A DNA stretch of 64,000 nt from Corynebacterium silvaticum (GTDB taxonomy: Bacteria; Actinomycetota; Actinomycetes; Mycobacteriales; Mycobacteriaceae), in NCBI RefSeq assembly GCF_004382825.2, contig NZ_SDQO02000001.1, positions 682,001-746,000 on the forward strand, given 5' to 3'. The notes beneath the pieces were generated by a model. The model was not told the origin of the DNA. It saw nothing but the letters and a program-made list of their open reading frames with translations, and made no database searches. Position numbers and translations under genes: made by a program. Positions 9,282 through 62,156 of the stretch are shown here, in pieces. Every line of letters begins with the position of its first letter. Position 1 is the stretch's first letter.

Positions 9282-9310
9282 TTGTCTTATTAGACAGCTT
9301 GGTCTATATT
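9282..9310 (+). promoter_or_regulatory. metK promoter with McbR-type operator in the spacer
   Basis: TTGTCT (9282-9287, -35) and TATATT (9305-9310, -10) are separated by 17 bp. The spacer holds TAGAC (9291-9295)-N6-GTCTA (9302-9306), which matches the published McbR operator consensus TAGAC-N6-GTCTA exactly; the last two bases overlap the -10. McbR represses sulfur amino acid genes in C. glutamicum. Binding here is inferred from sequence identity and position. Confidence 0.85.
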
Positions 9311-9406: not shown

Positions 9407-10636
9407 GTGACTCAGCACTCTCAGGCGAAGCTTCGCCTGTTTACCAGCGAATCGGTGACCGAAGGCCACCCAGACAAAATCTGTGATGCTGTCTCAGACA
9501 CGATTTTGGATGCGTTGCTAACCGTCGATCCTCACGCACGTGTTGCGGTCGAGACTGTGACTACAACCGGTTTGGTCCATGTGGTTGGCGAGGTTCGGAC
9601 ATTGGGATATGTGGAGATTCCCAAGCTAGTCCGTGACAAACTGATCGAGATTGGATTCAATTCTTCCGAGGTCGGTTTCGACGGCCGCACCTGCGGAGTT
9701 AGCGTTTCTATCGGCGAACAGTCCCAAGAAATTGGTGCAGGCGTAGACCAGTCGCATGAGGTGCGTTCCGGTTCTCAAACGGATGAGGACGATCAGGCGG
9801 GTGCTGGCGATCAGGGGCTGATGTTTGGTTATGCAACCAATGAAACCACCACGCTGATGCCGCTGCCTATTGATCTGGCACATCGGTTGTCGCGTCGTTT
9901 AACGCAGGTTCGTAAAGAAGGCATTGTGCCAAACCTTCGTCCTGACGGAAAAACACAGGTTACCTTTGCTTATGATGAGGTCGGGAAACCGGTGCACCTG
10001 GACACCGTTGTGGTATCTACGCAGCACGATCCACAGGTCACCCAAGAATGGTTGCATGAGCAGATTCGCGAAAACGTTGTGGATTGGGTTCTCCGTGACG
10101 CCGGGATTGCTGGGAACCTAGCTGATAATGAGTACACGCTGCTGGTTAACCCTTCAGGTTCCTTTATTGTTGGTGGACCCATGGGCGATGCTGGTTTGAC
10201 TGGCCGCAAAATCATCGTGGACACGTATGGTGGAATGGCTCGGCATGGTGGCGGAGCTTTCTCCGGAAAAGATCCGAGTAAAGTTGACCGTTCTGGCGCT
10301 TATGCCATGCGATGGGTCGCTAAAAACATAGTGGCGGCCGGGCTTGCCGATCGCGCAGAAGTCCAAGTTGCTTATGCGATTGGTCGAGCTAAGCCAGTGG
10401 GACTCTATGTGGAGACCTTTGGCACCGCGCACGCTGAGCTTACCGACGAAAAAATCCAGCAGGCCGTGCTAGAGGTTTTCGACCTGAGACCAGCTGCAAT
10501 TATCCGTGATTTAGACCTACTACGCCCGATCTATGCTGATACCGCAGCATATGGGCACTTTGGTCGGGATGACCTTGATCTGCCGTGGGAAAAGACTGAC
10601 CGGGTGGACGCTTTGCGCTCAGCTGTGGGCTTCTAG
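9407..10636 (+). CDS. metK: S-adenosylmethionine synthetase
   Basis: Makes S-adenosylmethionine from methionine and ATP. The three-domain family signatures are present: [20 protein letters not shown] at the N-terminus, [12 protein letters not shown], and [20 protein letters not shown]. The length of 409 is normal. It starts at GTG 9407 with AAGGAC upstream. The preceding promoter contains a perfect McbR-type operator, fitting repression in response to sulfur metabolites. Two overlapping short hairpins lie between metK and priA. Confidence 0.96.
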
Positions 10637-57537: not shown

Positions 57538-58647
57538 TTATAGATATTGCTCGGCATTGAGTCTCAAGTGCTCGCGCAGATAGGGGAGTGCAAAGTCTGC
57601 ACGCCCGCGCCCCGTGGCAACGATAACGCCACGGTCAAGGAGTCGCCTGCGGTATGTGGAAGGCTGACTTCCGGGGATACCTAATTCGGCTCCCAGTTCA
57701 TTAAAATTGGCAGGACCTTCGGCTTCTGCAAGCTTGATAAGGAATTGCATCTCGCGATAAGGGATTCCCTTCATTGCTGGCATATGTACTTGCTGGCCCA
57801 TGCGTTCGATAACTAAGGGGAGGGATCTGTCGACGTGTTCTTCAGATATGTCATGAGAGCCTGCCATGGTCCATGCGATCGACCCGCATAGTTGAATGAG
57901 GTAGGCATACCCATGGCATGCGTGGGTAAGAGTGCTGAGCGCCTGATCGTCGATATCTTTTCCGCCATGTTTGACCGTTTGGGCAATGGCGGTGCGAACA
58001 TCGTCATTATTCAAAGCTTCTATGGGGATGTGCATTGCGCGACGAAGAAACGTGGTGCCCTCATGGGCAAGGAGTTTTGATATCTCAAGTGGGAGGCCCG
58101 CCACAGCCAACGCGATATTGTATTCATTGCGCACGCAGTCTTGGATGGCATCCATGAGGAAATGAAGTGATTCGGGCAAAGCTGATTGCACCTCATCCAT
58201 CGTGATCAAAAGGCCGGATCCGCTTGCCGTGAGGTCTCTCGCAACATCATTCATTATCGACCATAGAGATACCTGTGGTGGCAACTGAGAAGGCTTATCA
58301 AAGGTGATCCCTCCAATATTAGCAATGGATACGCCTGATACCCCTACATGTGGTCCACGAGGTTGTCTTTGTCTAAGCAGTTGTGGCAATGAGACATGGA
58401 TGAGCTCGTGGTGTTCATGGTCGGACGCGCGGGCTCGAACGCATGTCCAATCTAATTCCTTGGCCCCTGCCTCTAGTTGATTTAGGAGGACGGTTTTACC
58501 GGTTCCGCGGGTTCCGCTAATAAGTATGAAACGATAGGGGGCGCCAATACCTTCTCTGAGTGCAAAGCCGAAATTATCCACGATCGAAGTTCTTCCGGCA
58601 ACAACAAGAGGGTTGACTCCAAAACTGGGACGGAAAGGATTGCGCAT
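57538..58647 (-). CDS. Orphan AAA/STAND-type ATPase with C-terminal winged helix
   Basis: A 369-residue ATPase of the Orc1/Cdc6-like or archaeal-type ATPase superfamily. It has Walker A SGTRGTGKT (residues 44-52), Walker B LLITMDEVQ, a sensor-like ALAVAGLP segment and a C-terminal ~65-residue winged-helix (YREMQFLIKLAEAEGPANFNELGAELGIPG...RRRLLDRGVIVATGRG). The start region NPFRPSFGVNPLVVAGR is typical of such ATPases. The gene stands alone, behind four TGTAGGT repeats that overlap its promoter, which suggests it binds its own control region. Function unknown. Confidence 0.8.
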   Translation of the reverse strand: MRNPFRPSFGVNPLVVAGRTSIVDNFGFALREGIGAPYRFILISGTRGTGKTVLLNQLEAGAKELDWTCVRARASDHEHHELIHVSLPQLLRQRQPRGPHVGVSGVSIANIGGITFDKPSQLPPQVSLWSIMNDVARDLTASGSGLLITMDEVQSALPESLHFLMDAIQDCVRNEYNIALAVAGLPLEISKLLAHEGTTFLRRAMHIPIEALNNDDVRTAIAQTVKHGGKDIDDQALSTLTHACHGYAYLIQLCGSIAWTMAGSHDISEEHVDRSLPLVIERMGQQVHMPAMKGIPYREMQFLIKLAEAEGPANFNELGAELGIPGSQPSTYRRRLLDRGVIVATGRGRADFALPYLREHLRLNAEQYL

Positions 58648-59072: not shown

Positions 59073-60437
59073 TTAGTTCCTAAAACCATGCACCGGCGCG
59101 GGGATAAAACCACCGCGCTGGATAAAGGTCGAATTATCAACGGTGGATACAGGGATAACGGGGGCATATCCCAGGAGGCCACCAAAGTTGACCTCATCGC
59201 CGGGGTGAGTGCCAGGAACCGGGATCACGCGGACGGCTGTGGTCTTATGGTTCATCACGCCGATTGCAGCTTCGTCGGCAATCATGCCAGAAATCAGCTC
59301 TGCCGAGGTATCTCCGGGAATAGCAATCATGTCTAGGCCGACTGAACAAATCGCTGTCATTGCTTCGAGTTTACCCACGGAAATATTCCCAGCACGTACT
59401 GCGTCGATCATTCCCTTGTCTTCTGAAACAGGGATGAAAGAGCCGGAGAGCCCTCCTACGCGGGAACATGCCATCATGCCGCCCTTTTTAACTGCGTCGT
59501 TAAGTAGCGCAAGGGCTGCGGTTGTTCCATGAGTTCCCACTTGGTCAAGACCCATGTGTTCCATAATGTGCGCAACAGAATCGCCTAGTTCCGCGGTTGG
59601 CGCCAGTGAGAGATCTACGATGCCAAAAGGCACGCCCAAACGTTCGGACGCCATATTTCCGACCAGTTGGCCTGCACGGGTGATTTTAAAAGCAGCCTTT
59701 TTAATGGCTTCTGCAACCTGGTCCAAGCTAGCTCCATCAAGAGAACCAAGCGCCCTATCCACAACACCAGGGCCGGACACGCCGACGCTTACCACGCAGT
59801 CGGGCTCTTCCACGCCATGGAAAGCTCCGGCCATAAATGGGTTATCACCCACGGCATTGGCAAAAACGACCAATTTAGCGCAAGCAATTGCGCTGTTATC
59901 TTTAGTCAGTTCTGCCGCTTCTTTAATTACTCTGCCCATTTCCCTTACTGCATCCATGTTGATGCCGGCACGGGAGGAACCAATATTAACGGAAGAGCAA
60001 ACAACGTCCGTGACAGTCAGAGCCTCAGGGATGGAGTCGATAAGCTTCTTATCTCCTGAAGTCATGCCCTTTTCGACTAATGCGGAATAGCCGCCAATAA
60101 AGTTGACTCCCACTGCCTTTGCGGCTCGATCGAGAGCCTTCGCAATTTCTACAGGGCTGCCATCGACAGCTGCAGCAATGAGTGCCACAGGTGTCACGGA
60201 AATACGTTTGTTAACGATGGGGATTCCGAGTTCACGCTCGATGCCTTCGCACTCGGATACTAGATCTTTAGCTACGGTTGTGATCTTGTTATAAATCGCA
60301 TCGCACGTATCCTCCATTGTTCCCCGGACACAATCCAGAAGGCTGATGCCCATAGTCACGGTGCGAATATCAAGACGATATTTTTCAATCATCTCGATTG
60401 TTTCCAAGATATTGCTGCTTGAATGAAGCGTAGTCAT
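59073..60437 (-). CDS. PFL-family protein (UPF0210/DUF711)
   Basis: A 454-residue soluble protein of the UPF0210 family, which shares a fold with pyruvate formate-lyase/ribonucleotide reductase but has no proven activity. Seen: [61 protein letters not shown], and the C-terminal [29 protein letters not shown]. It follows an ACT-domain gene by 21 nt in the same transcript, a pairing conserved across many bacteria that hints at amino-acid-controlled metabolism. Confidence 0.85.
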
Positions 60438-60458
60438 GTGTCTGAAGTTCCTCAGGAG

Positions 60459-60728
60459 CTAGATTGTGTTCATAGCATCGAAAATGGCTTGGGACTGAAT
60501 CCGGATGACCAGATTTTGATCCTTTTCCACTTCTGCCATGTGCTCTTGAATCGTTGCGATGTCTGTCGCAGAATCATCAAAGGAGACATGGAGAATCATG
60601 GTGAAATAGCCGTCCATGATTGTCTGCGACACATTATTAATATTGATTTCAAGCTCTGCGCACTTGGTAGCGACTGCGGCAATGATTCCGGTGTGATCTG
60701 CACCGGTGACGGAAATAATGGCGAACAT
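60459..60728 (-). CDS. ACT-domain protein (UPF0237)
   Basis: An 89-residue single ACT-domain protein: MFAIISVTGADHTGIIAAVATKCAELEININNVSQTIMDGYFTMILHV. ACT domains bind amino acids and control partner proteins; this one probably acts on the adjacent PFL-family protein. TAAGAT on the minus strand (60740-60735) ends 6 nt before its ATG without a ribosome site, suggesting a leaderless transcript for the pair. Confidence 0.88.
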   Translation of the reverse strand: MFAIISVTGADHTGIIAAVATKCAELEININNVSQTIMDGYFTMILHVSFDDSATDIATIQEHMAEVEKDQNLVIRIQSQAIFDAMNTI

Positions 60729-60780: not shown

Positions 60781-61500
60781 CTAGCGGTTATTTCGGCAGA
60801 CCTCAATAAAATTCTGTAGCACTCTGTTGGAATACGTCGTGTCAATATGAGGGAGAATTGCAACGATAGAATCGTAGTCTTCCGGGGTGAAGTACCCATA
60901 GTCGAAATAGAAATCCATACGCGTTTTCATCGCGGCGGCATCCATTTCTGCATGGAACTGGCACGCCCATGTGGAGCTGTTGATTCGAACCATCTGGATC
61001 GGGCAGGTGGGTCCCGTAGCTAACAGCGTAACGCCTTCGCCGAGTTTTTCACCGCTTTCTGTGTGTCCGGTGAGCGAGCTAAACTCTGCGGGAAGATCGC
61101 GGGTGATTCTGTCTTGTTTCCCCTCAGCAGTGAGCTGAACGATCGTAGGACCAGATGCTTCAGGATAGGAGCGCCCGACTGTTCCGCCTGTCAGGGATAT
61201 GGCAAGCGCCGTACCGTAACAAATAAAAAATACCGGGAGGGGAGCGTCGATAAGCTTCTGTATCTCTGAATGGACTTGAAGCTGCCATTGGTCATAGGAA
61301 TCGTTGGTAACGTTGAGCGGACTCCCGCCAACGATTACTCCGTCAAATCCTTCCAGAGACCCCACAGTTGCTTCGGCGGTATCTAACATTCGTTGCGTGA
61401 GCTGTTCGGAAGAAAGTCCAGTAGCGCGAAGGACATCGTTGTATTCAGCGTGTGCAACTGATTCACCAGACCGCGGAGAAACTAAGAGAACGGAGACCAT
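60781..61500 (-). CDS. Glutamine amidotransferase-like (class I GATase) protein
   Basis: A 239-residue free-standing class I amidotransferase-like protein. The nucleophile Cys is in VFFICYGTALAISL, and His-Glu in ACQFHAEMD; GFDGVIVGGSPLNVTND is the oxyanion-side loop. Acceptor substrate unknown; related proteins are labelled GMP-synthase-like. The large McbR-type palindrome 4 nt upstream of its start suggests a role in sulfur or methionine metabolism. I recall the C. glutamicum homologue being listed as an McbR target, which should be verified. Confidence 0.82.
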   Translation of the reverse strand: MVSVLLVSPRSGESVAHAEYNDVLRATGLSSEQLTQRMLDTAEATVGSLEGFDGVIVGGSPLNVTNDSYDQWQLQVHSEIQKLIDAPLPVFFICYGTALAISLTGGTVGRSYPEASGPTIVQLTAEGKQDRITRDLPAEFSSLTGHTESGEKLGEGVTLLATGPTCPIQMVRINSSTWACQFHAEMDAAAMKTRMDFYFDYGYFTPEDYDSIVAILPHIDTTYSNRVLQNFIEVCRNNR

Positions 61501-61504
61501 AGAA

Positions 61505-61534
61505 GCAACTCTAGACTACTTGGTCTAGAGTTGC
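61505..61534. promoter_or_regulatory. McbR-type operator overlapping the GATase promoter
   Basis: Palindrome with perfect 12-bp arms GCAACTCTAGAC (61505-61516) and GTCTAGAGTTGC (61523-61534). Its centre is TAGAC-N6-GTCTA (61512-61527), the McbR consensus. On the minus strand TAGAGT (61513-61508) is a -10 hexamer 7 nt from the GATase ATG, so repressor binding would cover the promoter of a leaderless transcript. Confidence 0.8.
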
Positions 61535-61577
61535 AGAATGCGGTGTCATGATCATGCGGTTTGTCTGGTGCGGAGCC

Positions 61578-62156
61578 CTATGGCGTAGGTTTTGGGTGGG
61601 AGCGCACAGTTTCTTCTACAAGGTCGAGAACTTGATCAAGATCCTCTGTAGCGGTGCCGGAGGCTAGTCGGGAAATGAAGCCATCCATTACTGTTTCTAG
61701 GTAGGTGTGAAGAACCTGTATGGGAACGTCGTCACGCATTCTTCCTAAATGCGCATTTCGCTCAAGACGAGTTACCACCGCTTCATCTAACACTCGCTGA
61801 TGCTCTTGCCACCGAGCTCTGAAAGCTGGATCTGTGCGGAGCATTTTGGCGATCTCTAGCCGTGTGGCTAGCCAATCGTGGCGCTCTGGATGGTCAAGCA
61901 TATCTCGCATGACTTCAACCAAGCCGTTTTCTGCAACAACTTCCGCCATTCGTGCAGCATCTTCTCGCGCTAAAGCCAGAAAAAGATTTTCTTTGTCGTT
62001 GAAATGGTGAAAAATCGCGCCGCGAGACTTTCCTATGGTCTCTTCCAGACGACGTACGGTCGCTCCCTCGTAGCCGTGCTCAGCGAAACACCTGCGAGCC
62101 CCTTCTAGGATCTCTTGGCGACGCAGCGTCAGTTCGGTGCTACTTACAACGGGCAC
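61578..62156 (-). CDS. acnR: TetR-family aconitase repressor AcnR
   Basis: A 192-residue TetR-type regulator. The N-terminal helix-turn-helix is LRRQEILEGARRCFAEHGYEGATVRRLEETIGKSRGAIFHHFNDKENLF; the C-terminal ligand domain is variable. It lies directly downstream of acn on the same strand, as acnR does in C. glutamicum, where it represses acn. GTG 62154-62156 has AAGGAAGGGG upstream. The acn promoter with its AcnR operator lies outside the window. Confidence 0.93.
   Translation of the reverse strand: MPVVSSTELTLRRQEILEGARRCFAEHGYEGATVRRLEETIGKSRGAIFHHFNDKENLFLALAREDAARMAEVVAENGLVEVMRDMLDHPERHDWLATRLEIAKMLRTDPAFRARWQEHQRVLDEAVVTRLERNAHLGRMRDDVPIQVLHTYLETVMDGFISRLASGTATEDLDQVLDLVEETVRSHPKPTP

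Follow-up and report, generated by a model that had tools for sequence, protein, structure and literature searches.

A gene for a free-standing class I GATase-family protein in Corynebacterium silvaticum is very probably controlled by the sulfur repressor McbR (TetR family), as judged from an operator-like palindrome that lies directly before its start codon and whose core recurs upstream of most orthologues. The gene lies in a 64,000-nucleotide stretch of contig NZ_SDQO02000001.1 (positions 682,001 to 746,000 of the forward strand), hereafter the window. Since a McbR-type operator is kept in most of the related species compared, the enzyme probably serves sulfur supply. Our best single guess for its activity is a gamma-glutamyl hydrolase for sulfur compounds, because the operator is one of sulfur control and no recurrent partner gene was recognised. 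On balance we favor the combined explanation of McbR control and gamma-glutamyl-sulfur hydrolysis; for the substrate taken separately, hydrolysis of gamma-glutamyl sulfur compounds stands just short of an even chance. The regulatory part by itself is an extension of the described McbR regulon, and of a target that had already been predicted. Added here are the conservation throughout the genus, a clade in which the operator precedes a paralogue instead, and a structural model with Arabidopsis gamma-glutamyl peptidase 1 (GGP1) as its top match. An enzyme family without known substrate is in this way tied to sulfur control across a genus with industrial and medically important species.

Palindrome and promoter

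The putative operator is a 30-bp palindrome at 61505-61534, a feature of neither strand called from its sequence and its footprint across genomes. It reads GCAACTCTAGAC-TACTTG-GTCTAGAGTTGC, with 12 of 12 arm pairs perfect and a spacer of 6 bp, and is one of four perfect-arm repeats in the window (arms of at least 10, spacer of at most 12). Its core, TAGAC-N6-GTCTA, occupies 61512-61527 without a mismatch, again on neither strand, and reads TAGACCAAGTAGTCTA on the minus strand. Four nucleotides (61501-61504) separate the palindrome from the GATase ATG at 61500. A putative -10 box, TAGAGT (61508-61513, minus strand), lies inside the gene-proximal arm, with its end 7 nt from the ATG. The sequence-only reading had described this element with its 12-bp arms, its core, its distance of 4 nt from the ATG and the -10 TAGAGT within it, all of which the sequence bears out. 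A sigma-70 consensus scan of 61300-61700 returned no -35/-10 pair. Based on these positions we infer that the GATase promoter may be leaderless and overlapped by the operator.

Compared with the McbR operators of C. glutamicum (metK, cysI, fpr2 and others), the element has a metK-type core and a placement over the promoter in common, whereas here the perfect arms reach 12 bp and the gene-proximal arm holds the -10-like box. McbR sites are described as often lying between -35 and -10 in PMC2580772. The outer arms read GCAACTC/GAGTTGC in the window and GTAACTC/GAGTTAC upstream of L059:7984, palindromy being kept via changes on two sides; among 101 upstream regions, no more than three were noticed to have such an extended outer arm, namely those of the window, L059 and L060.

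Relation to the McbR regulon

The window holds a second exact core, as had been claimed, at 9291-9306 (neither strand), ending 100 nt before the reading frame of metK (S-adenosylmethionine synthetase, 9407-10633, plus strand). We take TAGAC-N6-GTCTA, as given in the sequence-only reading, to be the McbR motif. The letters of this core were not found in the available parts of PMC2580772 and PMC1266029. In loci from the best 30 of 151 genomes, the core precedes metK in 28 cases, 27 of them exact. The metK core is oriented opposite to the GATase core and a CAAGC-type spacer is common to both, TAGAC-AGCTTG-GTCTA being TAGAC-CAAGCT-GTCTA on the other strand. In the table of PMC2807442, metK stands under McbR with no asterisk, which marks it as an experimentally proven target.

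The 2.55-Mb genome contains four exact cores, and these stand before metK, a ROK-family gene, a gene for a PF04143 sulphur transporter (Sulf_transp) and the GATase gene. The genome-wide scan did not uphold the claim that rarity of the core makes chance unlikely: the reversed-pattern control has seven exact matches, and 44 one-mismatch cores compare with 100 for the control. Rarity was consequently rejected as proof, and chance is excluded because of the position of the core and its conservation. Before the PF04143 gene, two McbR-type sites lie 33 bp apart, start to start (L001:1468-1516), the one with a single mismatch preceding the exact one. In C. glutamicum, McbR targets include the ROK regulators CysR (cg0156) and SsuR (cg0012), according to PMC2580772 and PMC1266029. 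In case of the ROK gene found here (locus L004), the mechanical open reading frame begins upstream of the exact core, which lies 19 nt before the first internal ATG; we take this ATG as the likely start. An additional one-mismatch core lies 88 bp further upstream.

A TetR protein encoded in locus L052 (G000:C7:392900-393514) is presumably McbR itself, going by the C. glutamicum sequence. Matches to this protein occur in 148 of 151 genomes (E <= 0.001; weak in the half-complete G119), and its presence therefore discriminates nothing between genomes. Between this McbR candidate and its divergent neighbor, at L052:1785-1806, TAGAC and GTCTA occur 12 apart instead of 6, and these half-sites may possibly reflect autoregulation of the candidate. 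A table in PMC1180825 gives mcbR as one of the regulators that four corynebacteria share.

Conservation before GATase orthologues

The footprint was determined in 101 Corynebacterium genomes (that of the window and 100 others), out of 112 with a GATase match. Left out were G046, where the gene is cut by a contig end, G076, G079, G081, G098, G126 and G134, as well as the weak matches in G011, G037, G128 and G138. Gene starts were assigned by script to whichever start codon lay closest to the aligned first residue. Within the 57 nt before the start and the start codon itself, 73 of the 101 genomes carry a core with at most two mismatches (7 with none, 44 with one and 22 with two), and 28 have no such core before their best-matching GATase copy. 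At the same threshold, 1.3% of random 60-nt windows from the same loci matched, and none of the 101 regions contained the reversed pattern. When 110 nt were searched and loci were sorted by genus, the core was present in 14 of 18 named Corynebacterium loci and in 1 of 62 loci of other genera. Retention of the putative operator through the genus Corynebacterium is an addition to earlier knowledge. Together with the four exact genomic cores and the sites before metK, it strongly supports, at the level of sequence, the methionine/cysteine control of McbR type that had been proposed for this gene.

Taken together, the 73 sites have the consensus TAGAC-CAAGCG-GTMTA. At position 14, A occurs in 37 sites, C in 31 and T in 5, perhaps because that operator arm doubles as promoter sequence. 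In 62 of 101 genomes, 50 of which have the operator, a TANANT motif ends 5-9 nt upstream of the start; the commonest spacing is exactly 7 nt (46 of 101), which points to leaderless transcripts. In 11 of 101 loci (L065-L068, L070, L071, L107, L110, L112, L120 and L121), the start codon ATG itself falls within the second operator arm (GGTATG). The operator is also kept with the gene in 12 loci in which the best acnR match is 1.8-7.3 kb off (L129, L131, L134, L136, L139, L141-L143, L148, L150, L151 and L154).

These data bear on two other accounts of the palindrome. Instead of an operator, it could be a transcription terminator or an RNA hairpin in the stretch that separates acnR from the GATase gene, given its 12-bp stem, the folding of the 91-nt RNA (-26 kcal/mol, z -2.25, with 3 of 200 shuffles as good) and the outer arms of L059, which stay palindromic despite changes on either side. 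This is very unlikely, however: what is conserved across genomes is the 5+5 core with some of the spacer and not a long stem, the element accompanies the gene even at loci with acnR elsewhere, and the unlinked metK is preceded by an identical core. The terminator form of this account was rejected, with 0 terminator-like sites and no T run. Alternatively, the operator might be bound by another TetR-type repressor, for example the adjacent AcnR. TetR operators are similar palindromes and acnR adjoins the GATase gene in most of the 101 loci, but the operator persists in the 12 loci with a distant acnR and its core is also found before metK, which is known to be controlled by McbR, and we consider this possibility highly improbable as well.

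McbR as regulator of the GATase gene is less new than the sequence-only reading implied. In PMC2807442, cg1739 ('GMP synthase-Glutamine amidotransferase domain') is listed as McbR*, where the asterisk stands for a predicted target, with a value of 1.36 at pH 6. This value is termed an induction factor and is probably a log ratio, because other entries of that source are negative. The McbR regulon is reported there to be induced at pH 6 and McbR to be inactivated by raised SAH. From its number beside acnR (cg1738) and the conserved gene order, we infer that cg1739, which is raised at pH 6, is the orthologue of the GATase gene of the window. The available passages of PMC2807442 give neither a function nor a sulfur role for cg1739, and no paper on its function was found among the literature matches listed.

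Gene neighborhood

The GATase gene follows acn-acnR in the gene order. The gene for the TetR repressor AcnR (61578-62156, minus strand) was named from its place behind acn and from the table of PMC1180825. On its other side, genes of the opposite strand or ACT/DUF711 genes often come next. In the window, an ACT-domain gene and a DUF711 gene lie downstream at 59073-60728, and the corresponding clusters occur in 35 (ACT) and 71 (DUF711) of 101 GATase loci. Neighbor clusters were built from mechanical open reading frames, with Pfam annotation on the window's neighbors, and no recurrent sulfur-metabolism gene was recognised by eye among them. The neighborhood was rejected as a hint to function, as nothing of sulfur metabolism recurs. 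An AAA ATPase (PF13191) gene at 57538-58647 belongs to a cluster present in only 3 of 101 loci, and PADLOC gave no match for it.

Protein family and fold

The assignment of the 239-residue protein (60781-61500, minus strand) to the free-standing class I GATases, made in the sequence-only reading, was confirmed by PF00117 (39.5 bits, cut-off 22.8), NF005743 (316 bits, cut-off 264) and a Cys-His-Glu triad. The triad residues C94, H183 and E185 are invariant across 41 aligned sequences; in alignment A1, residue 185 is Asp in 3 of 19 rows. An AlphaFold2 model based on the 41-sequence alignment had a mean pLDDT of 96.4. The best PDB match found by Foldseek was GGP1 (E 1.5e-17), which also ranked first among 1000 chains compared by VIA-align (Z 24.1, rmsd 2.9, 233 aligned residues, 18% identity). 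TM1158 (Z 23.1), 2a9v (a GMP synthase-type subunit, 22.9), SMU.1228c (22.5) and DnfC (21.9) followed, and lower scores were obtained for the MetA-type structures 2ghr (20.9) and 2vdj (20.7), SpuA (20.1) and PuuD (19.3). The fold match to GGP1 is not exclusive, because TM1158 scores only 1.0 lower. In a profile comparison, GGP1 aligned over residues 36-236 with E 2.3e-18 and GMP synthase subunits over 82-193 with a best E of 2.6e-21; by sequence, the latter thus outscore GGP1, over a shorter stretch. A GATase subunit of GMP synthase was rejected as identity of the protein, with 54.5 bits for TIGR00888 (cut-off 172.15) and 49.2 for PRK00758 (cut-off 198). GMP synthase-type subunits and the free-standing TM1158, SMU.1228c and DnfC thus share the fold (Z of about 21-23) and differ in that TIGR00888 is far below its cut-off here.

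With GGP1 (PDB 9k7i-9k7l) the protein has in common a class I GATase fold over the whole length, the stand-alone form and a sulfur context, while identity is 18-20% and GGP1 belongs to a plant pathway. With GGP1 as the closest solved fold, the gamma-glutamyl hydrolase activity proposed in the sequence-only reading is plausible. A MetA-like homoserine acyltransferase would likewise share the fold (2ghr and 2vdj) and would fit methionine synthesis. Still, its Z-scores are below that of GGP1, and a Pfam scan at E<=5, in which HMMER filters drop most weak matches, gave no MetA/HTS family. The role of metX in corynebacteria also counts against a MetA-like enzyme, which we regard as barely credible. 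The gene metX is named for corynebacteria in PMC2807442. GGP1 acts on glutathione conjugates (PMC11449216) and actinomycetes use mycothiol (PMC4360819). Corynebacteria are not known to make glutathione.

A more serious competitor accepts control by McbR and holds that the enzyme is a plain glutaminase or amidotransferase, or that its gamma-glutamyl substrate contains no sulfur (polyamine, folate or other amides). This is a substantial possibility, though below an even chance. GMP synthase-type, SpuA, PuuD and DnfC chains have the same fold with Z of 19-23, and the NCBIfam name of NF005743 is merely 'glutamine amidotransferase'. On the other hand, the operator belongs to a sulfur regulon, GGP1 is the best match over the whole length, and the clustered neighborhoods show no recognised recurrent partner gene.

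If the preferred explanation holds, with McbR control of a gamma-glutamyl-sulfur hydrolase, McbR bound under good sulfur and methyl status would sit over the -10 box and the leaderless start and thereby block GATase transcription. When S-adenosylhomocysteine rises, McbR would leave the operator, and the GATase would be expressed alongside metK, the ROK regulator and the sulphur transporter. The GATase-fold hydrolase would then strip gamma-glutamate from gamma-Glu-Cys, glutathione, S-conjugates of either, or gamma-Glu-Met, so that cysteine or methionine could be salvaged.

Distribution and paralogues

At E <= 1e-30, a GATase match is present in 108 of 151 genomes (112 matches less 4 weak ones). 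A match to PF01507 (PAPS reductase family) is lacking in 15 genomes, namely the window's own (G000) and 14 of 150 other Corynebacterium genomes. The GATase is kept in 14 of these 15 compared with 94 of the 136 genomes with PF01507, a difference that is not significant (Fisher two-sided p 0.068, relatedness ignored). The comparison gives no more than a hint of salvage as opposed to sulfate reduction. The findings as a whole suggest a route by which species without sulfate reduction may obtain sulfur from gamma-glutamyl thiols, for example host glutathione. PF04107, which stands for gamma-Glu-Cys supply, occurs in 149 of 151 genomes and therefore discriminates nothing.

In a FastTree tree of 134 proteins, two subfamilies, A with 98 rows and B with 36, are set apart with a local support of 100; in B, 3 of 36 rows are the best GATase match of their genome. 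The search for the operator covered the start codon together with the preceding 90 nt in paralogues and the preceding 57 nt in best-matching copies. It is present in 73 of 98 rows of subfamily A, spread over the subfamily. In subfamily B it is found in one clade only, in 6 of 8 rows (L072, L074, L076, L077, L079 and L092), where the McbR-type operator before the second GATase reads TAGACTRCYYGGTATG; the remaining two rows, L084 and L087, have three mismatches each. The second GATase of these six genomes is 30-33% identical to that of the window and lies 3.9-6.6 kb downstream. In five of the six, the acnR-linked A copy is without operator, and the A copy of L074 has a two-mismatch site of doubtful quality. 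Judging from this quick tree, sulfur control may have been handed over between the paralogues. The fullest version of our explanation is a tentative one, which we would sooner doubt than accept: a GGP1-like peptidase induced by sulfur starvation would salvage cysteine or methionine from gamma-glutamyl compounds including host glutathione, with the operator being ancestral to one paralogue subfamily and present on the other instead in one clade. As part of that version, the occurrence of the operator on one paralogue or the other would mean that sulfur control of one of the copies is maintained by selection.
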